Part shown: positions 16,344-50,242 of the stretch, one piece after another
Layout of the letters: each line of letters opens with the position of its first letter
Numbering within the stretch: position 1 is the first letter of the stretch
Assembly: GCA_023379805.1 (NCBI GenBank)
Contig: JAMCPI010000015.1
Location: forward strand, 1-64,000
Length of the DNA: 64,000 nt
Source: Nitrososphaerota archaeon
GTDB lineage: Archaea; Thermoproteota; Nitrososphaeria; Nitrososphaerales; JACPRH01
Reading direction: 5' to 3'
The notes under the pieces: generated by a model
What the model was told of the DNA's origin: nothing
Database searches by the model: none
The model's input: the letters and a program-made list of their open reading frames with translations, nothing else
Position numbers and translations under genes: made by a program

Positions 16344-16769
16344 CTAAAGGGCGTGGCACTTCATGCAGAGCTTGTTGTAGTCAGCGAAATCAATTCGTAC
16401 TGATGTACCATTGGTGTATCTTAGGCTTAGGAAGTTAGGTTGGTGCGGGTTGTGGCAGGTTAGGCAGTATTTGACTCGAATTGTGCCGCTTGACATCTGT
16501 AGTTGTCCTTCGAAGAAAAGTTTTGAGTGCTTGCTCGCAGAGACTGTATTCCAGACATTTGAGTGGCAGGTTTTGCAGATAGTTGCGTTTATGTTTGTAG
16601 TGTGCCATACGCCTTGTCCGTGACAGTTGCTACATGCTAGAACGGCGTGTGGGCCAGTTAGTCCCTTCGTTGATTGGTTTTGTTGAGGTGTTGCGAATGG
16701 GAGAACCGCTATTACTGCTGAAACACCTAGGAGCGCAAGAAGAATTATGACGTACCGTCGATGAAGCAA
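16344..16769 (-). CDS. Small exported tetraheme c-type cytochrome
   Basis: A 141-residue protein with an N-terminal hydrophobic export signal (about residues 6-26) and four CxxCH heme sites: CSNCH, CKTCH, CLTCH and CMKCH, the last at the extreme C-terminus. Additional His residues (GVWH, SKH, NPH) can serve as distal ligands, so bis-His hemes are likely. Phrases such as GVWHTT, WNTVSASKH and YCLTCHNPH are shared with the N-terminal part of the protein encoded just upstream (16977-17963), so the two are tandem paralogues. The start is TTG. Role: electron carrier on the outer face of the membrane. Confidence 0.9.
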   Translation of the reverse strand: MLHRRYVIILLALLGVSAVIAVLPFATPQQNQSTKGLTGPHAVLACSNCHGQGVWHTTNINATICKTCHSNVWNTVSASKHSKLFFEGQLQMSSGTIRVKYCLTCHNPHQPNFLSLRYTNGTSVRIDFADYNKLCMKCHAL

Positions 16770-16976: not shown

Positions 16977-17963
16977 TCAAGCTTTTTTCCTCTTTCTCAC
17001 GAAGACGAGTGCAGCGACGACCGCTACAGCTACCGCCGCGAGTATAGCTCCTAAGAAGAGTGGTGATATGGATAGACCTAGCAGGCTGGATGATCCTGTA
17101 CCGGTACCCTCTGAAACCTTCACTGTGTAGACATCGCTTTCAACGCGGCCTGAGGAGGCCATTAGCACAAAGTTGCCGGCTGAACTCGGAGTCCAAGTGA
17201 CCTCGTATTTTCCGTCCGCATCAGTAGCCACATTCCCAAGGATATTCCAAGTGGTGTTTCCTTCAGACTTTACTTTAATCGCAACCTCGGCGCCTGCTAC
17301 TGATGGGTCAATCTGGCCGTTAAGCACCAGCGGCGAGGAAACAGTAGTTGCTAAAGCTGAAGGCACAAGTGAGAGAGTCGTTTGCTTAGTTTTTGTTGTT
17401 GTCGTGGTTACTGAGGTTTGGTTAGTGGAAGTCCGCGTTGTAGTCGTTATGTTGCCCATCGTTGTTGTCGTTGTAGTTGTAGTTTTTGTTGTGGTAGTGT
17501 TTTGCGGCATCACATCGGTATTGGAAATTGGCCTCGATCCGTCGGATAAGGAGTGACAGTTGAGACAGAGGGGCATAATGTCGTCGAACTTGTAATATGT
17601 TTCTTTACCGTCTTTGGCGGTTATTCTGAGATAATCGTTATGGTGCGGATCGTGGCAGGTGGTGCAGTACTTGACTTGGAAAGAGCCGCCTTCACGATCG
17701 ATTGTTCCGTTTCGCATTAACGCCATGTGCATACTTTGCTTCGTTACGGTATTCCACTGATCTTGATGGCACTTTTGGCAAACTTTTACATCCTTGTATG
17801 TGTTGTGCCATACACCGGTTTGATGGCACATACCGCAATCGAGTGATGCGTGTTTGCCGGTTAGCTGTCCTCTTGGAGGTGTAACCTCCTGTGCGTAGAC
17901 CGTGCCTACGGCTGTGACAGCTACAAGAAACATTAACGCTAAAACTAAGTGGGCCAACCTCAT
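16977..17963 (-). CDS. Membrane-anchored tetraheme cytochrome with Thr-rich stalk and Ig-like domain
   Basis: A 328-residue surface protein in clear modules. Signal peptide at about 1-24; heme domain with CGMCH, CQKCH, CTTCH and CLNCH at about 40-140; a Thr-rich low-complexity stalk at about 155-205, probably glycosylated; an Ig/Big-like beta domain with a PSSAGNFVLMASSG motif at about 205-285; a C-terminal membrane helix; and a basic RKRKKA tail. The heme domain is paralogous to the neighbouring 141-residue cytochrome. The design puts the hemes beyond the membrane, perhaps beyond an S-layer, and suggests extracellular electron transfer. The start is ATG at 17963. Confidence 0.9.
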   Translation of the reverse strand: MRLAHLVLALMFLVAVTAVGTVYAQEVTPPRGQLTGKHASLDCGMCHQTGVWHNTYKDVKVCQKCHQDQWNTVTKQSMHMALMRNGTIDREGGSFQVKYCTTCHDPHHNDYLRITAKDGKETYYKFDDIMPLCLNCHSLSDGSRPISNTDVMPQNTTTTKTTTTTTTTMGNITTTTRTSTNQTSVTTTTTKTKQTTLSLVPSALATTVSSPLVLNGQIDPSVAGAEVAIKVKSEGNTTWNILGNVATDADGKYEVTWTPSSAGNFVLMASSGRVESDVYTVKVSEGTGTGSSSLLGLSISPLFLGAILAAVAVAVVAALVFVRKRKKA

Positions 17964-27407: not shown

Positions 27408-28616
27408 TTATGGTTGTTTTTTGATTGCGTGTGAGTTGTGGCATGTGTAGCAGTTTCCGTTGTAGTGGGTTGTTGGGCCGTCGGCGAACATTGGGGCGTG
27501 ACAGATGCCGCAGGTTTTGCTTGGGTCTGTTGAGAGGGTCATGGAATGCTCATAGTATGGTAGGTAGCCGTATGCGGCTCTTGTTTCATGTAGTTTTCCT
27601 TCTGATGTGAGGTTTATCATCCGCAGGGTTGAGTGGCATAATCCTTGCGTGGATGAGCAGCTGCTCTTTTCACCGGTTACACCAAGGTAATCTATCGGGA
27701 CTCCTCTTGTTGGAAACGTGGCTGTAGCGATTGTTCTAATATTCTCCCAGACCGAACTCATCTTAGCGACATTTGTGTATGCGCCGGTGTGGAAGTTCCA
27801 GTCATCGGCATACCTGTCCCAAGTCCAAGCACCAGTAGTCTTGTTCTTCACCATCGGAGCCAATGTGACTGTCGAAATGTTGCTTAGACTCAGCTCCTTC
27901 TTGCCTGTTGCTGATACCTCGTAGATAGATCCGTCGCTGCTTACTGTCAGTGAACTGGCTGTGAGATTCTTGTCGGATCTCAATTGTATCCTGAAGTAGT
28001 CCGGGTAAATCCCGGCGATGCTCGCAGTGTAGTGTCCGCTTGAGCTTTCTGACAGAATCATCAAAAGATCTGTGTTGTCCGCTGCATAGTCGAAGAATGT
28101 CAAGTTAGCTTGGATAGAGGCACCAGCAGTAGCTGAATACATGTCGATAGATAACGTAGAGGAGGCTGTTGCAGTGGAGTTGCTCCAAGCGCCGCTGTAA
28201 CCTTTCCCGTAAGGGAAGGGCACCTGCTTATAGCCTAAGGACACCCATCGGCTTTGGTTAACCGGAGCAGTCGAGTTTTTGAGCCAAACCACCCAGTCAG
28301 CCATCCCGAAGCTGCCCCAGCGATCTCTCTTTCCGTGGCAAACTAAGCAGGCGTTCGCATCAGGCCCATCATTCTTGATAGACATGAGCTCACGCACAAT
28401 TGTTCGGCTGTGGTTGGTGCTAACCATCTCCTCGTATATCCCATAGTGGCATTTCAGGCATGACGACTCACCTTTAGCGACGATACTGTGCGGGGTAGTG
28501 GTAGCTATCTGACCTGCTGCACCAAAAGCACCGTACACACCTAAGCTAACCAGCATCACCGCTACAACGAGCAGTATGATTACTCGCCCTCTGCTTGAAC
28601 CGAGCTGTTCAGGCAT
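27408..28616 (-). CDS. Large exported multiheme cytochrome-like protein
   Basis: A 402-residue protein. Signal/anchor helix at about 9-30; two CxxCH sites near the N-terminus (CLKCHYG, CLVCHGK); a central beta-rich region of about 200 residues; then CGICH and CYTCHNSH at the C-terminus, giving four canonical hemes. A further CSSTQGLCHS has the form Cys-x6-Cys-His and could be an unusual heme site or a disulfide. It resembles cytochrome c554/NapC-type or ethylbenzene-dehydrogenase-like heme proteins only loosely. ATG 28616 is chosen over TTG 28649 because a TATATA box at 28651-28657 would place the transcript start between them. Confidence 0.82.
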   Translation of the reverse strand: MPEQLGSSRGRVIILLVVAVMLVSLGVYGAFGAAGQIATTTPHSIVAKGESSCLKCHYGIYEEMVSTNHSRTIVRELMSIKNDGPDANACLVCHGKRDRWGSFGMADWVVWLKNSTAPVNQSRWVSLGYKQVPFPYGKGYSGAWSNSTATASSTLSIDMYSATAGASIQANLTFFDYAADNTDLLMILSESSSGHYTASIAGIYPDYFRIQLRSDKNLTASSLTVSSDGSIYEVSATGKKELSLSNISTVTLAPMVKNKTTGAWTWDRYADDWNFHTGAYTNVAKMSSVWENIRTIATATFPTRGVPIDYLGVTGEKSSCSSTQGLCHSTLRMINLTSEGKLHETRAAYGYLPYYEHSMTLSTDPSKTCGICHAPMFADGPTTHYNGNCYTCHNSHAIKKQP

Positions 28617-28807
28617 ACGGTGCACTTTTATAGAATAATAGCCGCCCAAGTATATAACTAGTAGTGCAGTCTAAGCAGCAAAACAGCACATAGTCACCAG
28701 AATCTGCGTCTGAAGAAACGCGTACCCCACAAACCTTACTCCGCCATACCACTACCTGTTTTAGAAGCAAATAGAAGAGGAGGAGAAAGGAGCGTGCGTG
28801 TCAGAGT

Positions 28808-29483: not shown

Positions 29484-31571
29484 TTAGCCGTGTATATGCT
29501 CTTGAGGAATGTACTGGTAAAGTTCATTCGCTACATCCGTGAGACCCAGTTCGTTTAGCTTCTCTTTGGTTGGTATCCCTGTCTTCTGATCCCAGCCGCG
29601 CATCTGGTAATATTCGTCCTTAGCTTTCTCCCAAGCGGGGCGGTCGATCGCGTTTCCTCGCCGGTCTTTGTGTGTGAAGTAGTATTCGTTGAAGGTGTCG
29701 TCTTCACGGCGGCGACCTCGCCTCACTTGATTGGCTCGTTCAAGGTTGAATACTCCCTCAGAAATCTTCAGCAGATCCTTCATCGTTGTGTCAATACCTG
29801 TAGCCTGCGAGTATAATTTGGCCTCTAACTCCAGTCGCTTCGGCCCACTTTCCATCTCAGGATCGTCGGGCTTCTTGTTTTCGGTGAAGAACGTGTCCAG
29901 CTTCATAAGCGCAGTTGGGAAGAACCAGTCGCACAAGCCCACTGAATCTATTAGCACAGCATGGTGCTGCGCCACCACAGCGGCTTGCGGCTTCCCCTCG
30001 TAAGTGAAGGGATTTGCTGCAGCAGCGGTGCCGTAGAACCATTTACACATCTCCTGGTCACCGTATGGAACTCTAGTCCAGCTGTGGTTTGAGTACGGAT
30101 CACGTGTATCTGTAGCCCACAGAATCTGCCCCACCGGGTTCGGATACCCGGTGGGATCTCCAGGACCCTTAGCGGTGCCTATGTAGAACCAGTGCTGCCT
30201 TGAGCCGTGAGCTGTGTATCGCTCCTCATACAGCTCCCAGATGCGGTTTCCATACTTCTCCCTAAGCTTCTCAGCGGTTCGATGAACCCCGTCCGCTAAC
30301 AGGTTACCGAACTCACCTTCACGCCTAGCTAACATTCCGAAGAGCTTGTCAGCAAACTCTATGCTACCCATATCCTGAATAGGTACGCCTGTGTTCTGCT
30401 CAGTCAGTATACCCTCTTTATACGCAGCCCACAGCCAAGAAAGTATTCCTGTAAGCTCATACGAGTTTATCCCCATCCTGTCAGCCAGCTTCACACCGTA
30501 CCATGCGGTCTCGTCCTGCGGCCTCTCCGCGAAGTCTTTGTGAAGCGGCGCCACCGGGCCTACTCCTTCCCAGTTATAGTACATCTGAAGCGCAACACAC
30601 TGCTGGTGACCGGGGGTCATACCCGGCGGAGCAATATATGCTCTGCATATGACTTGGCAGCCGAAGCAGCCGTCAAGCCTCTTCATGTGGCTCGTCAAGA
30701 TCTTTGGGTTCCCGCCGTAGATGCCACCAGGGCCACCGTAAGCAGGTACTACAGGCATGGCTTTTACTCGGATTAGTTTACGAATCTTAAAGACAGTTTC
30801 AACTAGTTCTTTCGGCTTGGCCACCGGCACAGAGCCGGTTCCTCTCACAGCGATGGCTTTGAGGTTCTTTGAGCCCATTACTCCGCCGAAGCCGCATTGA
30901 CCGGCAGCGTCACCTGAATCATGCATTATAGTAGCTACCCTTGAGAGTTTTTCACCCGCTGGGCCGATAGCTACACATCTCACATGCCTAGGATCGTATC
31001 TCGCTGCATACCTCCATTCTTTCGTATCGGGAAGATTAACGTCTTTACCAGCGGTTCGGAATCTAGGGTTAGAACCAGCTCCTCCAGAGGCGTTTCCCCC
31101 GTCGTTTGTAAGTTCCTGCTGTATCCTCTTCTGAACCTCTAAAGCCTCCATGCCCCAGAGATTACCTGCGCTTCTAATCTCGACCTCTTCATCCCTTATC
31201 AGGATGTACACCGGTTTACTGGCCTTGCCGTGGACTATAACACCGTCGTAACCAGCAAACTTGAGCTCAGGAGCCCAGTGACCCCCTATACCTGAGTGCG
31301 AAGGGTACTCCTTGGGATGCTGCGGCGCAAGTGAACCTATTCTCCACCTACCGCTGGACGGTGAATTGGTTCCTGCTAAAGCGCCGGGAGCGAATATGAG
31401 CCTATTTTCAGGATCAAAAGCCCTCGCATCAACAGGCACTTCATCCCATATCACCTTCGCGATCAAACCTCTGCCTCCGATGAATTTAGGGAAGTACTGC
31501 GAGGAAGAAACCTCTGTAATCTTCTGAGATGTTAGATCTATTCGTAGAATTTTACCAGTCCATGAGAACAT
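29484..31571 (-). CDS. Tungsten/molybdenum aldehyde:ferredoxin oxidoreductase family enzyme
   Basis: A 695-residue AOR-family enzyme, which oxidises aldehydes (or related substrates) to acids with a bis-pterin W/Mo cofactor and a 4Fe-4S cluster. The N-terminal domain begins with the usual WTGKILRIDLTSQKITEV and GGRGLIAKVIWDEVP; the pterin region has SGIGGHWAPELKFAGYDG; the cluster cysteines are CFGCQVIC and a distal Cys in GLCDWFF. An insertion near residues 155-190, rich in Gly, Asn and Arg, is not usual. Good TATA and GGAGGT sequences precede ATG 31571. No accessory ferredoxin gene is adjacent, unlike the second AOR at 46983. The substrate is unknown. Confidence 0.9.
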   Translation of the reverse strand: MFSWTGKILRIDLTSQKITEVSSSQYFPKFIGGRGLIAKVIWDEVPVDARAFDPENRLIFAPGALAGTNSPSSGRWRIGSLAPQHPKEYPSHSGIGGHWAPELKFAGYDGVIVHGKASKPVYILIRDEEVEIRSAGNLWGMEALEVQKRIQQELTNDGGNASGGAGSNPRFRTAGKDVNLPDTKEWRYAARYDPRHVRCVAIGPAGEKLSRVATIMHDSGDAAGQCGFGGVMGSKNLKAIAVRGTGSVPVAKPKELVETVFKIRKLIRVKAMPVVPAYGGPGGIYGGNPKILTSHMKRLDGCFGCQVICRAYIAPPGMTPGHQQCVALQMYYNWEGVGPVAPLHKDFAERPQDETAWYGVKLADRMGINSYELTGILSWLWAAYKEGILTEQNTGVPIQDMGSIEFADKLFGMLARREGEFGNLLADGVHRTAEKLREKYGNRIWELYEERYTAHGSRQHWFYIGTAKGPGDPTGYPNPVGQILWATDTRDPYSNHSWTRVPYGDQEMCKWFYGTAAAANPFTYEGKPQAAVVAQHHAVLIDSVGLCDWFFPTALMKLDTFFTENKKPDDPEMESGPKRLELEAKLYSQATGIDTTMKDLLKISEGVFNLERANQVRRGRRREDDTFNEYYFTHKDRRGNAIDRPAWEKAKDEYYQMRGWDQKTGIPTKEKLNELGLTDVANELYQYIPQEHIHG

Positions 31572-33906: not shown

Positions 33907-35130
33907 CTAAAGGGCCTTGAAGTTGTCAGCCCAGCTGGTGTATGCTCGGAGCATGTCACCTGAGACGCTTGGTCGACGTCTCTTCAAGACCTCTTTGAAG
34001 TCGTCCAGTGTGATTGCGCGCGGCTGTGAGGTTTTGTCCTTAGCGACACCGGATTCGAACAGCTCCGAGACCACTCTGATCTGGACTGCTTGACAGATGT
34101 CTTTGACATCGCTACCGGTGTATCCTTCGGTGATGTCAGCTAGATCCTCCAGTTTCACGTTAGGATCCATTCTAAGCGGCGCTGTGTATTGTCGCAACAT
34201 GTAGATCCGTGAGTCCTTATCCGGGAGCGGCACGTAGATCCGTTTCTGGAAACGTCTCAGAAAAGGTGAGTCGAGCGCCCAAGGCTTGTTAGTAGCGCCG
34301 ATAACGTATAGGTGAAGGTTCTTGCCCTTGTCGGAGATTCCGTCCATCTCCTTCAGGAACTGGTTTCTGACACGCACCTCGCCACCAACCTCCTGTGAAC
34401 GGGAGCCAAGGAGCGAGTCGAGCTCATCGATGAAGATGATTACTGACGGGGCGCCGTTCTTCAGCATATCGCGGGTAGAGTTGAAGAGCTTGGCAACGTT
34501 CTTCTCAGCCTCACCCAGCCACTTTGACATAATCGAGGCGGCATCAACAGTCAAGAAGTAGCCGTCTATTTTCGCCGCGGTCGCAGCAGCCAGCATAGTC
34601 TTGCCGCAGCCAGGAGGACCATACATGAGTATCCCGCGCGGCCACCCTAGGGGGAAAAGATCAGGCCGCTCAATAGGGAAGATTATAGATTCGTTGAGTG
34701 CCTTCTTCGCATCATCTAGACCGATGACCTCCTCCCACTTTACGTCAGGCTTCTCCTGAACAATAAGATCCTCGTAAGTCGCTTTAAGGGACTGAACAAC
34801 TTGAGGAGTGTTGCCGTTACCACCGACGTTAGCACTCTCAGAAGGTGTCATTGCGGTGAAGGCTGGACCGGACTCGGTGTCGCGCGACTCTTGAATGCTG
34901 TATCCGTGAGCTGATGTCAAGGCCTTGATGCGCTCCTGATAAGCGGATGCTCGCTCAAGGTAAAGCTTGTTCAGATTATAGTCAGGGTAAAGTTGAGCCA
35001 GCTTGATGAGTGTGGAGATCGCGCGTTGATACATTTGGATCGCCATGCCTCGCGAGCCCTGTGAATCGAAGCGAATTGCTTCAGCGGCGTATTTTCCTGC
35101 GGCGTCCTCCAACTCTTTAGCTGCTGACAA
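33907..35130 (-). CDS. cdvC: CdvC, Vps4-like AAA ATPase of cell division
   Basis: A 407-residue AAA ATPase that remodels ESCRT-III filaments at the division site. An N-terminal MIT domain (about residues 1-80, with YAAEAIRFDSQGSRGMAIQMY) precedes the AAA core: Walker A GPPGCGKT, Walker B IIFIDELDSLLG, sensor and arginine-finger region FLRRFQKRIYVPLP, and the Vps4-like C-terminus. MIT binding to a MIM motif on CdvB is the expected interaction. The TTG start lies nine bases after the cdvB stop and is preceded by purine-rich GGAGGAG and AGGCGG sequences. This is the last gene of the cdvB-cdvC unit. Confidence 0.93.
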   Translation of the reverse strand: MSAAKELEDAAGKYAAEAIRFDSQGSRGMAIQMYQRAISTLIKLAQLYPDYNLNKLYLERASAYQERIKALTSAHGYSIQESRDTESGPAFTAMTPSESANVGGNGNTPQVVQSLKATYEDLIVQEKPDVKWEEVIGLDDAKKALNESIIFPIERPDLFPLGWPRGILMYGPPGCGKTMLAAATAAKIDGYFLTVDAASIMSKWLGEAEKNVAKLFNSTRDMLKNGAPSVIIFIDELDSLLGSRSQEVGGEVRVRNQFLKEMDGISDKGKNLHLYVIGATNKPWALDSPFLRRFQKRIYVPLPDKDSRIYMLRQYTAPLRMDPNVKLEDLADITEGYTGSDVKDICQAVQIRVVSELFESGVAKDKTSQPRAITLDDFKEVLKRRRPSVSGDMLRAYTSWADNFKAL

Positions 35131-35138
35131 TTAACCGC

Positions 35139-35984
35139 CTACTCCTCCGTGCTTCCCAGTTTAACCTTACCTTCGGAAACCAGTTTAATCACTGTTTTCT
35201 CAACTTCATCAGCTGGAAGTTTCAAAGTGGCGGCTGCATCCAAGATGTTCAAGTGACCGCTCCGTCTATCAATGTAGTTAAATATCTTATCCTCCGCCGC
35301 AGCATTCCCCTTAGGTTTACCGAGAATCACCGGTTTGAAACCCGGCTCGCTTGAATCATCATCAGTGGCCAGCAACGCGATCCGCTCAACCTTCTCGAAC
35401 ATTGAGTCACCGCTCGCCGAGGCGATTGACTGCGGAATATCGTCCTTTAGCTCCATAGTCTTCTCCTCGCTGAAGAGCTTGGCCTTTTCAAAGAGATCCC
35501 GCTCGCTCTCGTTCTTGATGTCTAGCGAAATCGATGGGGAGAGGTTACCTAAGCCAGCCAACGTCTCTGAAAGCGATTTGTTAACTTCATCAGTCGCATT
35601 TTCAAGCGCAGGCACTACACCCGAAATAGATTTGCTGATGCTCTTTATGATTTTGAACGACTCATTCACGTTAACAAAGACGTCACCAACATCCCGTATG
35701 CTCTGAATCCTCACAATAATCTGGGTTAAGGCCAGCTCGCTGACCTTCACCACCCGCAGCACCTTCTTTATCTCTGAGAGCTCAACTGCAAAAACTGTCG
35801 CACGACTATCATCTCGCTCCTCAATCGACTGGACAACCTGTTCAAACAGAGCCTGACGCCGGTTCTCCAGCCTAACGCGAAGCAGAGCTATCTCCCGTTT
35901 ATGAGCCTCAATCTTGTTTGTAGCAGAGGCTAGCTTCTGCTTTAGATCATCCTCGCCACCAAAAAGACGTTGCGCGAGCCTCAA
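35139..35984 (-). CDS. cdvB: CdvB, ESCRT-III-like cell division protein
   Basis: A 281-residue ESCRT-III (Snf7-family) homologue. The helical core occupies about residues 10-140 (HKREIALLRVRLENRRQALF and VKVSELALTQIIVRIQSI), a Pro-containing patch near KPVILGKPKG may be the MIM that binds the CdvC MIT domain, and the last 50 residues (FNYIDRRSGHLNILDAAATL) form the winged-helix that in other archaea binds CdvA. It polymerises at mid-cell and is disassembled by CdvC. TTG 35984 is supported by GGTGAT six bases upstream. No cdvA gene lies upstream in this cluster, which is unusual for cdvABC loci. Confidence 0.9.
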   Translation of the reverse strand: MRLAQRLFGGEDDLKQKLASATNKIEAHKREIALLRVRLENRRQALFEQVVQSIEERDDSRATVFAVELSEIKKVLRVVKVSELALTQIIVRIQSIRDVGDVFVNVNESFKIIKSISKSISGVVPALENATDEVNKSLSETLAGLGNLSPSISLDIKNESERDLFEKAKLFSEEKTMELKDDIPQSIASASGDSMFEKVERIALLATDDDSSEPGFKPVILGKPKGNAAAEDKIFNYIDRRSGHLNILDAAATLKLPADEVEKTVIKLVSEGKVKLGSTEE

Positions 35985-36102
35985 AACAATATCACCAGAT
36001 TACTAGCTAGGAATCTCCATCCTCCAAGGGAGACCATGTCCTAGCTACGCTAACCGCCAATTAATGTAAACCACCGGAAAGTCTTAGTGTAAAATAGGGG
36101 AA

Positions 36103-36169
36103 GACAGTTGTGTCGATCCGGCAGGGACCCATTTGTTTGGGCCCCGACTCCGGATTAAACGCAACTGTC
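36103..36169. ncRNA. Strong three-stem structured element upstream of cdvB
   Basis: Three nested inverted repeats line up in one hairpin: GACAGTTG (36103-36110) with CAACTGTC (36162-36169), ATCCGG (36116-36121) with CCGGAT (36150-36155), and GGG-A-CCCA with TGGGCCC around a six-base loop (36124-36144). That is 21 base pairs in 67 bases. It lies between the CdvB-paralogue stop and a TATA-like box (CTATTTTA, about 36099-36092 on the minus strand) that may drive cdvB. It could be a small RNA, a terminator/attenuator or a leader element. The strand cannot be decided. Confidence 0.4.
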
Positions 36170-36191
36170 GCGCTACCTTCGTCTGATGGGT

Positions 36192-36950
36192 TTAGCTGAA
36201 GCTTGCGGTACTTGTGAAAGATGAGTCAGAGGTAGCGGGAAGATCTGGGAACTTCTCCTTCATTCTCTGCTCGGCAACAGCTGATGCCTCGGCCATGATC
36301 TTCTCAGCCTCTTCGTTAGCGGCCTCGAAGTTCAGGGTAGATCCACCGAGCTGCCCAGCATCTACGAGGATGCTGCCTAGCAGTCCACCGATCTCTCCTA
36401 TCTCGTTCTCAGCTTCGGGTAAGACGCTTGTGAGCCCGGCCTTTACGCTCCTAATGACGGACATTGCAGGTGTTAGGGTGACCACAATGTCTCCTAGTTC
36501 CTGAACGGTGTTGAGTCTCATGCTGATCTGTTCAAGCGCTAGTTTCGCAGAGGTTACCATCTTGTTCATCTTTCTGAGCTCAGCGAGTTCGTTCGCAAAG
36601 ACAGATGCGTGCGCTACATCGTGTTTTTGGATGGATGCTACAACCTTAGCGAAGATAGCCTGATCTCTATCCTTTAGCTTCGCAGATGCGGAGTCGAGTT
36701 TCGAGATTTGTACTTGGATTTGTCGCATTGCTTGTTCGAGACGAGGCTTCAGAGGTCCAGCTGACCTGACCGCGCCGCGAACTTTTTCACCTAGTGTTGC
36801 TTGATTCGGCTTAACCCAATTTTTACTGAAGCTAGACGTAGTTTTACACCTGTTTCTAAAGGGGAGGACTTTTGTCGATAAGAAGGGAAGTATAACAAGT
36901 TCAACCAAAAAGGAAAAAACGATGCACCCTTTCAACAGCACACACAGCAT
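36192..36950 (-). CDS. CdvB paralogue (ESCRT-III-like)
   Basis: A second ESCRT-III protein, clearly related to thaumarchaeal CdvB paralogues: WVKPNQATLGEKVRGAV, PLKPRLEQAMRQIQVQIS, FANELAELRKMNKMVTSAKL and LGDIVVTLTPAMSVI. It lacks the winged-helix tail of CdvB and ends in a Ser/Thr-rich region. The homologous part starts near residue 39 of the frame drawn here. The preceding 37 residues are hydrophobic and Cys-containing, unlike the family. No ATG/GTG/TTG occurs in frame near the conserved start, but an ACG (36839-36837) preceded six bases upstream by AGGTGT does. The product probably begins there or the upstream region holds an error. Confidence 0.88.
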   Translation of the reverse strand: MLCVLLKGCIVFSFLVELVILPFLSTKVLPFRNRCKTTSSFSKNWVKPNQATLGEKVRGAVRSAGPLKPRLEQAMRQIQVQISKLDSASAKLKDRDQAIFAKVVASIQKHDVAHASVFANELAELRKMNKMVTSAKLALEQISMRLNTVQELGDIVVTLTPAMSVIRSVKAGLTSVLPEAENEIGEIGGLLGSILVDAGQLGGSTLNFEAANEEAEKIMAEASAVAEQRMKEKFPDLPATSDSSFTSTASFS

Positions 36951-39152: not shown

Positions 39153-39269
39153 AGCGAATGAAAGAAACATATGTTTGCATAATTCGATATTTATCTACAT
39201 ATCTCGCAACAAAACTAGAATTATATTCTACTAAACTTAATTAAATACGCAGCTCATCTCTAATCCAAG

Positions 39270-40049
39270 ATGAGCAGCCGAGTAACGACCTCGATTGCAG
39301 TTTCGATCATAGCAATAATAATCGCAGCAGCAGCGATCGGACTCGCCCTTACTAGAGCGGGACCTCAAGGTTCAGTAGGCCCGCCGGGACAAGCTGGGCC
39401 ATCCGGACCAGCTGGACCTGCAGGACAACAGGGCCCGCAAGGACCAAAGGGCGAGCAAGGACAACAAGGGCCACCTGGGCCACAAGGACCTCCGGGACTA
39501 CAGGGCCCGCCGGGACAAGCAGCTGGCGGAGGAGTTGGTAATCTCACCACGGCGGCGGTAACCCAGATAGCTAACCAGACCGTTATGAAGGCGCTATCTA
39601 AGCAGCTTGCGTTTCCGATTACTGCCACGATTGAGCCTAGAAGGGGCTGTCCAGCGTGTCACACCTTGATTAACTCTACGAGTGGACAGTACACACTGGC
39701 TTACGAGGCGATCCAAGCAGCTAAAGCTATGAATAAGACGCATCCAGCCTTCAAACCTACTGACAACCCGAATGTTACAGAGTGCTTCCCCTGCCATGCT
39801 CCTGCCCCGTCCAACGGTACGCGTGCAGGTAGAGGAACAGTGGCTCCCCTGACGCTTAGAGACATTGTGCATCCAGCCCACATGGGCAGCCAAGTCTTCA
39901 AGGTGCATTATGGGGGGAACTGCTTCACCTGTCACGACGTTGACGGTGAAGGCAACTTCCTGATACTCAGCCAGAAGGTAGACACCAACAACAAAGGAGT
40001 ACCCAACCCGGACAAGATACCCATACCCGGAGCAATACCAGCACCATAA
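39270..40049 (+). CDS. Collagen-like repeat / triheme cytochrome fusion
   Basis: A 259-residue exported protein of unusual design. Residues about 7-28 form a membrane anchor or uncleaved signal. Residues 31-84 (39360-39521) are 18 uninterrupted Gly-x-y triplets with many Pro at x and y ([15 protein letters not shown]), a collagen-like triple-helix sequence. A Gly/Ala hinge is followed by a C-terminal domain with three CxxCH heme sites: CPACH, CFPCH and CFTCH, plus extra His ([15 protein letters not shown]) for distal ligation. The heme part resembles class III/NrfB-like cytochromes only by motif. If the repeat trimerises, each unit would carry nine hemes on a rigid rod outside the membrane. 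The predicted role is electron transfer across the cell envelope. Confidence 0.9.
39360..39521 (+). repeat. Collagen-like Gly-x-y coding repeat
   Basis: Eighteen consecutive codon triplets encode Gly-x-y with the first position always glycine, with no interruption. At DNA level the units vary (ggaccagct, gggccgcca and so on), so the repeat is kept by protein selection and is not a recent slippage product. Confidence 0.9.
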
Positions 40050-46982: not shown

Positions 46983-48956
46983 CTAAGCAATCAATCCTTT
47001 CTTGTTAAGATCGTCAGCCACGTCTTCTAACCCCAGTTCCGTTAATCTTCGTGCAGTGGGTTTCCCAGTTTCCACATCCCAGCCTCTGAACTGGTAGTAT
47101 CGGCTCTTGAGCTCCTCGAACTTCGCTCGGTCAAGCGATCTGCGGGCAACCTCCATATGTCCGTCTGAACGAGTAACTTTTCCAGCTGACCGCTCATTGT
47201 AGTAGTATTCGGAGACTGTGTCCTGTGCTCTAGTGCGGCCCTCTCGAGTCATAATTGCTCGTTCAACATTATAGATGCGTTCACCTATTTTGAGCATAGA
47301 TTCCGGGTCAGGCATCATGTTTGAGCCGGTGACGGCTGTGAAGAGCTTAGGCTCCAAGTTAGGGGTGCAGCCTCTGTGCTTTTCCCCGTACCAGCTAGCG
47401 TAGTTTCCGAAGTACCAGTCGCAAAGCGTAAGCGACTTCTTCACACACTCATAATTCTGAACCCACTGCGTAACGTAGGCGTGGCCTTCATTGTACATTC
47501 CTTCATTCGTTTCATCCAGCGCTTTTACACCCATATCGCCCCACACATCCTTCACAATAGCGACCAGCTCATCCGCGGTTATCCACCCGTAATTCGCATA
47601 TTCAGCGTGACTTCTGGTGACTAGGAAGTAGAAGTCATGCTCATTCGGAAGCCTGCTTTCCATAGCCAGTTTTAGCGCAAAAACAGGAAGGATTCTACCG
47701 TCAAACTGGTTCGCAAAACCTCGGTGATAATTCTTCAAGTAGCTTGCAGCGTTTTTACCTATAATATCTGCTGCGCGCGCATTGCCTTCAGACAACGTAT
47801 TGCCGAAGCCGTCTCTATACGCGATCTTGCGGATAAGGGTCTCAGCGAACTCGTACTCTCCTAACTTGTCGAACGGCAAACCGGTGTCCGCGTCACTAAT
47901 TACACCAGCATTGTGAAGCTTGACAAGCCAATCCATCATCATAGACAACTCAAAGGAGTTTACAGCTAAAGCATCAGCGAGCTTAGCAGCCTTCCAGTAA
48001 GCGGTCGTCAGTTCACCGTGCGCGCCGATATCGAACTTCGCGTACCAGAGCAGCTGCTCACACTGAGCTTGACCTGCAGGTATAGCTGCATCTGAGATTG
48101 ACGCATAGGTTCTGCATGCGATTGGGCAGCCGTAGCAGGCCTCCGCCTTTACACTATACTTGTCTACCCACTTCTCGCCGTAGTCGGAGTATTCTAGCAG
48201 GTTGTTTATGCGGTGGTAGCCGTGCTGAGCGATTTTTGGAGGACGCTGATCTGGTCTGAAGAGAAGGTTCCGCATCTCTTCAGATATTCTCATGAGATCT
48301 TCTGGTTTTGCTACTTCGACGCTTTTGCTTCCCTGCACAGCTATTGCTTTGAGGTTCTTTGAGCCCCAGACGCCGCCGAAGCCGCCTTGACCCAGGGCGC
48401 TTCCTGAGTCGTGAAGTATAGAGGCTATTCGCGATAGATGTTCGCCTGAAGGCCCTATTGTGAGGACAGCGGCTTTCCGTGGAGTGTTAAGATCGCTCCA
48501 TATCGTTTTCTGCGTCTCGTAAGTGGTTAAGCCCCACAGGTGACCGGCGTCCTTTATCTCAACCGTGCCGTCGTTAATAGATATCCAGACAGGCTTAGAG
48601 GCTTTCCCCCGAATTATGAGCCCGTCGAAACCTGAGAACTTCAAGAAGGGTCCGAAGCGTCCACCTACACCTGATCTAGTGTAGACTTCACGCGGGTAAG
48701 GTTGAGCGGCCGTACCCCCTACTTCGCTTTTCCCAGCTTGAGGCGCAAAGGTTCCGGTTGTCGGCCCTGTAGTGAGTGAAAACACGTTTTCTGGATCGAA
48801 GGCGCCCACTGAAGGAGGAACCTCGTCCCAGTGGATCTTAGCGTTAATTCCTCTGCCGCCTAAGAAGCCTGAGGCGTACTTCTCTGTCGGCACCTCGCTG
48901 TATTTACCTGAGGTGAGGTCTATGCTGAGTATCTTGCCAACCCATCCGTAGCTCAT
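46983..48956 (-). CDS. AOR-family tungsten/molybdenum oxidoreductase (YdhV-like operon)
   Basis: A 657-residue AOR-family enzyme with the usual start GWVGKILSIDLTSGKYSEV and GGRGINAKIHWDEVP, the pterin region SGVGGRFGPFLKFSGFDG, and the cluster ligands CYGCPIAC with a distal Cys in TLCDWYFG. It shares its gene order with E. coli ydhV-ydhY-ydhU: the next genes upstream encode a four-cluster ferredoxin and a membrane cytochrome b, and the stop/start of the ferredoxin overlaps this gene by four bases. So electrons from substrate oxidation probably go to ferredoxin and then to or from the quinone pool. The substrate is unknown; related BamB enzymes reduce benzoyl-CoA, but no other bam genes are here. 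Confidence 0.9.
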   Translation of the reverse strand: MSYGWVGKILSIDLTSGKYSEVPTEKYASGFLGGRGINAKIHWDEVPPSVGAFDPENVFSLTTGPTTGTFAPQAGKSEVGGTAAQPYPREVYTRSGVGGRFGPFLKFSGFDGLIIRGKASKPVWISINDGTVEIKDAGHLWGLTTYETQKTIWSDLNTPRKAAVLTIGPSGEHLSRIASILHDSGSALGQGGFGGVWGSKNLKAIAVQGSKSVEVAKPEDLMRISEEMRNLLFRPDQRPPKIAQHGYHRINNLLEYSDYGEKWVDKYSVKAEACYGCPIACRTYASISDAAIPAGQAQCEQLLWYAKFDIGAHGELTTAYWKAAKLADALAVNSFELSMMMDWLVKLHNAGVISDADTGLPFDKLGEYEFAETLIRKIAYRDGFGNTLSEGNARAADIIGKNAASYLKNYHRGFANQFDGRILPVFALKLAMESRLPNEHDFYFLVTRSHAEYANYGWITADELVAIVKDVWGDMGVKALDETNEGMYNEGHAYVTQWVQNYECVKKSLTLCDWYFGNYASWYGEKHRGCTPNLEPKLFTAVTGSNMMPDPESMLKIGERIYNVERAIMTREGRTRAQDTVSEYYYNERSAGKVTRSDGHMEVARRSLDRAKFEELKSRYYQFRGWDVETGKPTARRLTELGLEDVADDLNKKGLIA

Positions 48957-49672
48957 CGTAGCAACTCCCTTGGTATGTCCTTCTTCCGCTCATCTAGAAA
49001 GACCGCTAGGCTTGAATTCCCGACACCAGCCGTTCCTTCAGGAAGCTTCGGAACATATCTTAACGCACCGTTAGGACAATGTTTTACGCATCTCGGTGAG
49101 CCGTAGCAGAGATGACATTTCAACGCCGTGTTCCGCTTCTCATCAAACCTTATTCTTGCGACACCGTGAGCAGCACCGCATGCAGCTATGCATTTTTTGC
49201 AGCCTATACACTCAGTCTCATCTATTATTCGCGCATTGGTTCCTGACTTCTCGTCCACCTTCAAAGCTGCAACGGGGCAGACCGGAAGACAGTGCGAGTT
49301 TTCGCATTGAAAACACGGTGTGGGGTCGAAGTTGGTGATGTCAGGCTTGAAGGGATCTCGAATTATCTGTATCCTAGATAAAGACGTGTTTGAGACTCCG
49401 TAGTTGAAGGTGGTGCAGGCGGCTTCGCAGGACTGGCAGCCTGTGCATAGAGCAGGATCGAAGAGTATGTAACCGTTGGCGGTGGGAACAGCAAGCTTTC
49501 CCAGCGAGTTCTCCCAGATATTCATACCTGTTGTCCAGAGCTGGTATGCGGTGGAGTTGAAGATCACAACAGTTGCAGACGCTGCTGCAAGACCGCCCAT
49601 AAACTTCCTCCTAGAAATCCGGAGCGAGTCATCCTGATCGTTACGCTTTTCGTGTTCTGCCAAAATTTTCAC
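48953..49672 (-). CDS. Twin-arginine exported four-cluster ferredoxin (YdhY-like)
   Basis: A 239-residue iron-sulfur protein with a Tat signal (SRRKFMGG, then a hydrophobic stretch) and four CxxCxxC-type cluster motifs: CTGCQSCEAAC, CFQCENSHCLPVCP, CIGCKKCIAACG and CHLCYGSPRCVKHCP. This is the subunit type that sits between a molybdopterin or AOR subunit and a membrane cytochrome b. Because of the Tat signal, the AOR partner, which lacks its own signal, may be exported with it or the complex may face outside. It is translationally coupled to the AOR gene and lies 21 bases downstream of the cytochrome b gene. Confidence 0.9.
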   Translation of the reverse strand: MKILAEHEKRNDQDDSLRISRRKFMGGLAAASATVVIFNSTAYQLWTTGMNIWENSLGKLAVPTANGYILFDPALCTGCQSCEAACTTFNYGVSNTSLSRIQIIRDPFKPDITNFDPTPCFQCENSHCLPVCPVAALKVDEKSGTNARIIDETECIGCKKCIAACGAAHGVARIRFDEKRNTALKCHLCYGSPRCVKHCPNGALRYVPKLPEGTAGVGNSSLAVFLDERKKDIPRELLR

Positions 49673-49693
49673 TTCTCCGTTTATATGGGCAGT

Positions 49694-50242
49694 TTACTTG
49701 TGAGCTACTCTCCTGTCTAAGACGAGGTATACGACTAGGTAGATGACTAGGAATAAGGTGACCCCATATGCTAGTAGAAGATGAGCATTTTTGGCGGCGA
49801 AAATGAAGCTCCAGCCTAGGTTGAAGAGCCAGAAGGGAATAGCCCATCTAAACGGCTCGTAGATGATAAGCCCAGTTATCCCTGTAACTAGCACCAAAGC
49901 AGGGATAACCCACTTTATCAGCAGAGCAGAGGAGGTGCGTGGACCCATAGATATGACTGGTCTATGCGTAAACAGGTTGAATATTGTGATAAACACGATT
50001 GATGAGAGTAGAGTTAGAACTGCCACTATGTGTGCCTCGAAGAGCACAACGGTAGGCAAAACCCCGACCGTCTCATTGAGGGGCTGCAGACTCTCTCTAC
50101 CAGCCATTACTAAACCGGTTAATACGACTAATACCAAACTTATGAACTTGACGAACCGATAGGCTGCATCAACTGAAGCGTAACGCTGAAACATCAAGAT
50201 ACCGGTGACACGCTTCCTCAGCAGCAACGCCAACTGTCGCAT
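49694..50242 (-). CDS. Membrane cytochrome b subunit of the AOR complex (YdhU/b561-like)
   Basis: A 182-residue protein with four membrane helices. Conserved His residues in FEAHIVAVL and NAHLLLAYGV, each within a helix, suit two b-type hemes as in thiosulfate reductase cytochrome B or YdhU. First gene of the cytochrome b - ferredoxin - AOR operon, it would join the complex to the quinone pool. The start at 50242 is used; a nearby internal start is possible. Confidence 0.75.
   Translation of the reverse strand: MRQLALLLRKRVTGILMFQRYASVDAAYRFVKFISLVLVVLTGLVMAGRESLQPLNETVGVLPTVVLFEAHIVAVLTLLSSIVFITIFNLFTHRPVISMGPRTSSALLIKWVIPALVLVTGITGLIIYEPFRWAIPFWLFNLGWSFIFAAKNAHLLLAYGVTLFLVIYLVVYLVLDRRVAHK

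Follow-up and report, generated by a model that had tools for sequence, protein, structure and literature searches.

A triheme cytochrome domain joined in frame to a collagen-like stalk in a Nitrososphaerales archaeon, with homologs in Chloroflexota

Introduction

Cytochromes of the OmcA/MtrC family are known for extracellular electron transfer, and their bacterial members have a porin complex or a lipoprotein anchor. Geobacter PgcA, an extracellular cytochrome that has a signal sequence with a lipid attachment site and a role in mineral reduction, resembles the protein described here in combining three CxxCH motifs with chain-extending repeats (PMC5732950). The latter protein is encoded on the forward strand at 39270..40049 of a 64,000-nucleotide stretch of archaeal DNA, hereafter the window. 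Whereas the PTx/PAx repeats of PgcA lie between its hemes, the repeat of the window protein is of the Gly-X-Y type and lies N-terminal to all hemes; no trimer has been proposed for PgcA, and the likeness is one without established homology. Surface-anchored Gly-X-Y stalks that carry a globular domain are also found in Scl1/Scl2 and Lcl (PMC4066190). The heads of these proteins are not hemoproteins, however, their anchoring is different, and the window stalk scores far below the cut-offs of their models. Closer to the archaeal setting, multiheme cytochromes of Ferroglobus and Methanoperedens likewise join a heme domain to a surface structural module, but that module is a surface-layer-like beta-sandwich rather than a collagen (PMC4429474).

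Both parts of the window protein are of known kinds. The initial annotation knew of no described collagen-like multiheme cytochrome in an archaeon, and in open-access papers we found no description of a collagen-like module together with a multiheme or c-type cytochrome, nor of their recurrent joining in cytochromes of several unrelated families from two domains of life.

Domain organization of the window protein

The open reading frame encodes 259 amino acids without internal stops, and the anchor, the repeat, and all three CxxCH sites share one frame. Residues 1 to 30 (39270..39359) comprise a short N-terminus and a single hydrophobic helix, a putative membrane anchor without a lipobox, and are followed by 18 Gly-X-Y triplets that include one Lys-Gly-Glu pair (residues 31–84; 39360..39521). 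A linker with a predicted helix (residues 85–120; 39522..39629), its length kept in the alignment of archaeal homologs, is a candidate trimer-forming neck. The triheme domain occupies residues 121 to 259 (39630..40046), with heme sites CPACH (39648..39662), CFPCH (39783..39797), and CFTCH (39921..39935) recognized from the sequence and the alignment. Modeled in AlphaFold2 with 22 homologs, this domain reached a pLDDT of 50 and a pTM of 0.29, and the linker helix was the sole part of the model with a block pLDDT of 65 to 75.

The Pfam Collagen model PF01391 matches the protein at 34.5 bits (cut-off 27.2; E = 1.7e-8). Among 20,000 shuffled versions of the glycine-rich segment, the longest Gly-X-Y run reached 10 triplets, and shuffling the whole protein gave runs of at most seven, which rules out a chance or low-complexity origin. 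The 18 uninterrupted triplets between anchor and three-CxxCH domain that the initial annotation had reported are thus borne out by the reading frame, the Pfam match, and the shuffles. Glycine in the repeat is encoded by all four GGN codons (10/4/3/1), and an 18-base tandem pattern in the DNA is matched at only 68%, so the periodicity seems to be kept at the protein level. Taken from its sequence, the gene appears to encode a surface triheme cytochrome on a collagen-like stalk, with anchor, stalk, and head in one frame.

Across 22 homologs, candidates for distal heme ligands are His158, present in at least 90%, and His201 and His204, which are invariant. Together with the three CxxCH sites, these three conserved histidines make the head a probable bis-His triheme domain. 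The protein has the sequence features of a multiheme cytochrome c, namely the three CxxCH sites, the distal candidates, and lipobox-bearing homologs. Against three families tested for the head, the scores were 19.5 bits for Cytochrome c7 (PF14522; cut-off 24.8), 20.6 for Paired_CXXCH (PF09699; cut-off 20.6), and 21.2 for the MtrC-MtrF domain (PF22113; cut-off 30). The OmcA/MtrC decaheme model TIGR03507 gave no match to the window protein, which has three hemes and not ten, and a profile search of solved structures with the head returned only weak local CxxCH matches.

Collagen-stalked cytochromes of the same genome

With the window protein as query, twelve matches were obtained in the complete assembly (G000; 2.34 Mb). 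Two are paralogs over the whole heme domain, on contigs C17 and C10. The C17 paralog (256 amino acids, 17 triplets, three CxxCH) is 64% identical to the window protein, and both it and a sister-species protein keep the anchor, repeat, and heme domain in frame; the earlier reading of the repeat as translated in frame with the heme domain, in an archaeon, accordingly holds both for the single frame of the window gene and for these relatives. Four further proteins match in the anchor and stalk only.

Exactly six proteins of this genome match PF01391, and every one contains CxxCH motifs (3, 3, 2, 8, 10, and 10). The chance of such a complete overlap is at most 3e-8, a generous bound that takes all 271 CxxCH pattern matches of the genome to occur pairwise within genes and assumes ~2,340 genes. 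The stalked heads are of four types: triheme (two proteins), EB_dh-type (PF09459), 8/10-heme, and OmcA/MtrC decaheme. This set was beyond the view of the initial annotation, which was confined to the window. Two stalked proteins that combine CarboxypepD_reg with a multiheme part are 59% identical to each other. By its TIGR03507 score (480 bits; cut-off 209), the stalked paralog on C3 is a genuine OmcA/MtrC-family decaheme, for which extracellular electron transfer is the expected task; in it, a collagen stalk and a transmembrane anchor replace the bacterial anchoring. In this archaeon the genes stand isolated among housekeeping genes, and the window gene is without an operon partner.

The window and the assembly also contain multiheme genes without a stalk. 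Three window ORFs on the reverse strand have four CxxCH each (16347-16769, 16980-17963, and 27411-28649), the first and third of which pass a Pfam multiheme cut-off. Elsewhere, a small contig (L110; G000:C6:1-11404) holds many non-stalked multiheme genes (8, 8, 3, 3, and 4 CxxCH) along with large membrane proteins without Pfam matches. The window further encodes two aldehyde ferredoxin oxidoreductases (46986-50242 and 29487-31571, both reverse). One of the two has genes for a small membrane protein and a Tat-type 4Fe-4S protein as neighbors, and may form a respiratory oxidoreductase. At 33910-36950 (reverse), a Vps4/CdvC-like ATPase adjoins a weakly Snf7-like (CdvB) protein, reminiscent of the Cdv cell-division loci of related archaea.

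A stalkless paralog

The C10 paralog (213 amino acids, three CxxCH) lacks Gly-X-Y repeats altogether. The block from −55 to +27 of the window gene (39215..39296), likely the promoter and start region, is common to both genes, with 74% identity to the C10 paralog and 78% to its sister-species ortholog. From 39790 to the stop (39790..40049), the window gene and the C10 paralog differ at 5 of 260 bases (98% identical), against 53 differences in the preceding 250 bases (79% identity), a pattern that suggests either recent gene conversion or duplication. In a tree of the heads, the window copy groups with two stalkless genes (support 97/95), apart from the stalked C17 pair. The window gene may have been partly overwritten by C10, or the stalk may have been gained or lost in this small clade; either way, the stalk would be an exchangeable module. 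A homolog lacking the repeat, which the initial annotation had taken as evidence against the fusion, does therefore exist, but it points to an optional stalk module rather than a spurious fusion. The stalkless triheme paralog of locus L055 (5533-6171, forward) directly follows phosphate uptake (Pst/PhoU-like) genes, and its flanks can be aligned in the sister genome.

Archaeal relatives

The sister genome (G001) also encodes six collagen proteins, all six with two or more CxxCH; one is of a new type in which the stalk precedes two cytochrome c domains. This stalked diheme gene lies ~4 kb from genes for a Tat-type 4Fe-4S protein and a DOMON protein. The single collagen protein of G003, a genome of the same family, is of the OmcA/MtrC-like type. 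Matches to TIGR03507 occurred in only G000 among 398 sampled genomes of the phylum, a sample from which the sister genome and G003 were apparently absent.

Across the class, PF01391 matches occur in 209 of 400 genomes, mostly from AmoA-bearing families, and the collagen frame is free of CxxCH in all of the 28 best-scoring loci read there. Four families of the order carry AmoA, and the source genome and its family lack it; on this basis, we infer that the source genome belongs to a non-ammonia-oxidizing member of the Nitrososphaerales.

Outside this order, a bathyarchaeal triheme relative has a transmembrane anchor and eight triplets, its contig ending within the head, and both weaker collagen matches of the same bathyarchaeon, this relative and an octaheme protein, carry CxxCH motifs. 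The octaheme protein is 55% identical over 352 amino acids to a stalked octaheme lipoprotein of the Anaerolineales. This pair (L109 484-1710, reverse, and L096 6532-7791, forward) constitutes a second shared family, that of the stalked octahemes.

Bacterial homologs

A scan of the genomes of 84,980 species located the triheme head in Chloroflexota, one member of the Thermoleophilia, and one bathyarchaeon, and the nearest relatives of the head outside the genus are bacterial. In nine loci (L056-L064) from Anaerolineales and other Chloroflexota, ten copies of the same head are preceded by a bacterial lipobox-like end and 7 to 16 Gly-X-Y triplets. The archaeon has this arrangement in common with certain bacteria of soils and sediments. 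The lipobox takes the position of the archaeal transmembrane anchor, and its presence with Gly-X-Y repeats ahead of the head suggests that the head is extracytoplasmic and tethered. Homologs with both modules, which the initial annotation had proposed to look for, are thus found in the same genus, the bathyarchaeon, and the Chloroflexota. In several of the Chloroflexota stalked trihemes, two extra cytochrome c domains close the protein, and this diheme end shares 56% identity with the stalked diheme that the sister archaeon encodes as a protein of its own. In other Chloroflexota and in the Thermoleophilia homolog, Ig-like (Big_7), DUF11, or SLH domains precede the head. As read from these domain orders, the head is the common element, and the device that holds it varies (Gly-X-Y, SLH, Ig-like, or DUF11).

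In G404, the stalked triheme gene is located immediately upstream of an operon resembling that of alternative complex III (ACIII), whose products include a pentaheme protein, an FeS/molybdopterin-type protein, and NrfD. The layout recurs in G405, and the name ACIII is based on the order of the genes, their heme counts, and Pfam matches to some subunits. Besides CcmF, Rieske, and cytochrome b genes, the G404 stretch includes two additional stalked cytochromes, with 8 and 6 hemes. In G406, the triheme gene follows 4Fe-4S, NrfD, and cytochrome c genes. Within the order of G404, the triheme head occurs in 7 of 301 genomes and PF01391 matches in 38 of 301, and 8 of the 23 readable collagen-like frames are multiheme. 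The tree of archaeal and Chloroflexota heads is unrooted, with weak middle branches, and is compatible with transfer in either direction.

Sequence signatures of a possible triple helix

Thirteen archaeal stalks keep glycine strictly at every third residue over 17 to 30 triplets and never place Lys or Arg at X. Pairs of the Lys-Gly-Glu/Asp type number 10 in these stalks against 1.3 expected, a count reached in 0 of 20,000 shuffles, with related stalks counted as independent. Such pairs raise the melting temperature of a triple helix by 15 to 17 °C through inter-chain salt bridges (PMC7824840), and bacterial collagens fold into a triple helix without hydroxyproline (PMC4066190). The excess of these pairs indirectly makes the putative trimer more plausible. 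At 0.286 nm per residue, 17 to 30 triplets correspond to stalks of ~15 to 26 nm, and the 18 triplets of the window protein to ~15 nm. The depth of the archaeal pseudo-periplasm is comparable, so the heads would sit at or outside the S-layer. Some Chloroflexota stalks consist of only seven triplets, mostly Gly-Pro-Ala, which is short for a stable triple helix.

Discussion

We consider it probable that the window gene encodes a trimeric stalk of ~15 nm on which heme heads are presented level with the S-layer or outside it, for use in extracellular electron transfer. The triple helix, made of three chains, would begin at the membrane, and each trimeric head would bring nine bis-His hemes close to the outer side of the S-layer. 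From this position, the heads could pass electrons between redox carriers of the membrane or pseudo-periplasm and extracellular acceptors such as metal oxides, humics, or partner cells; alternatively, the cell's own larger stalked cytochromes (OmcA/MtrC-type decaheme, 8/10-heme, or EB_dh-type) may be their partners. The stalk would serve as a mechanical spacer, with electrons handed over through other cytochromes or by contact or diffusion rather than along the rod.

The stalk could instead be a single-chain, proline-rich tether of polyproline-II-like form, as in PgcA, that holds a monomeric head on a long leash. The seven-triplet Gly-Pro-Ala stalks of some homologs, the occurrence of a stalkless paralog, and the precedent of PgcA, in which a repetitive linker accompanies a triheme cytochrome (PMC5732950), all speak for such a tether. 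The strict glycine spacing over 17 to 30 triplets and the excess of Lys-Gly-Glu/Asp pairs in 13 archaeal proteins are, however, what a triple helix demands, and we judge the tether rather unlikely. An adhesin or matrix protein, attached to minerals, polymers, or partner cells by its collagen part and using its hemes chiefly for sensing or detoxification, might be expected from the NCBIfam models nearest to the stalk alone, which are those of the Scl/Lcl adhesins, albeit far below their cut-offs. Yet the repeat is placed between the anchor and the head, and SLH or Ig-like domains can take its position, which agrees better with a stalk than with a binding part, and the heads are cytochromes of the electron-transfer type that stand beside respiratory complexes in Anaerolineales; a primarily adhesive role is accordingly quite improbable.

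The initial annotation had raised a conductive rod as plausible, a reading in which the stacked hemes of the trimer form a wire leading away from the membrane. A trimer, if formed, would indeed bring nine hemes together. The 18 triplets of the stalk contain no CxxCH, however, and span ~15 nm without cofactors, far beyond the electron-tunneling limit of roughly 1.4 nm, so the stalk would be only a spacer and conduction along it is very improbable. Finally, the bacterial affinity of the head outside the genus could reflect an assembly artifact or bacterial contamination of the archaeal genome bin. Against this, the genes lie on contigs of 87 to 229 kb among archaeal housekeeping genes and encode a transmembrane anchor instead of a bacterial lipobox. 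Moreover, the C10 and C17 copies, flanks included, align in the sister genome (76–77% over 1.1–1.3 kb), on which ground we reject contamination as scarcely credible.

Beyond spaced display by the window protein itself, collagen-like triple helices might be a general display device for respiratory cytochromes, in the form of modular trimeric stalked heads with 3, 2, 8, or 10 hemes, OmcA/MtrC included; we put this forward tentatively. The carriers would possibly be an AmoA-less lineage in the order of the ammonia oxidizers, at least one bathyarchaeon, and the Anaerolineales. It is conceivable, with similar reserve, that the heads project through the S-layer and that the height at which a redox partner sits is set by the length of its stalk.

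A 2015 survey found no cytochromes c in Thaumarchaeota (PMC4429474). Multiheme cytochromes, among them an OmcA/MtrC decaheme, can now be placed in an order that belongs to this group. In archaea, the export of electrons from a cell that has a single membrane and an S-layer is an open question, and a collagen stalk would be a simple answer to half of it, in that it fixes the place of the heme head. Because one genome holds two closely similar heads, one stalked and the other stalkless, the role of the stalk is directly testable. A bacterial-style collagen gains a likely respiratory use.
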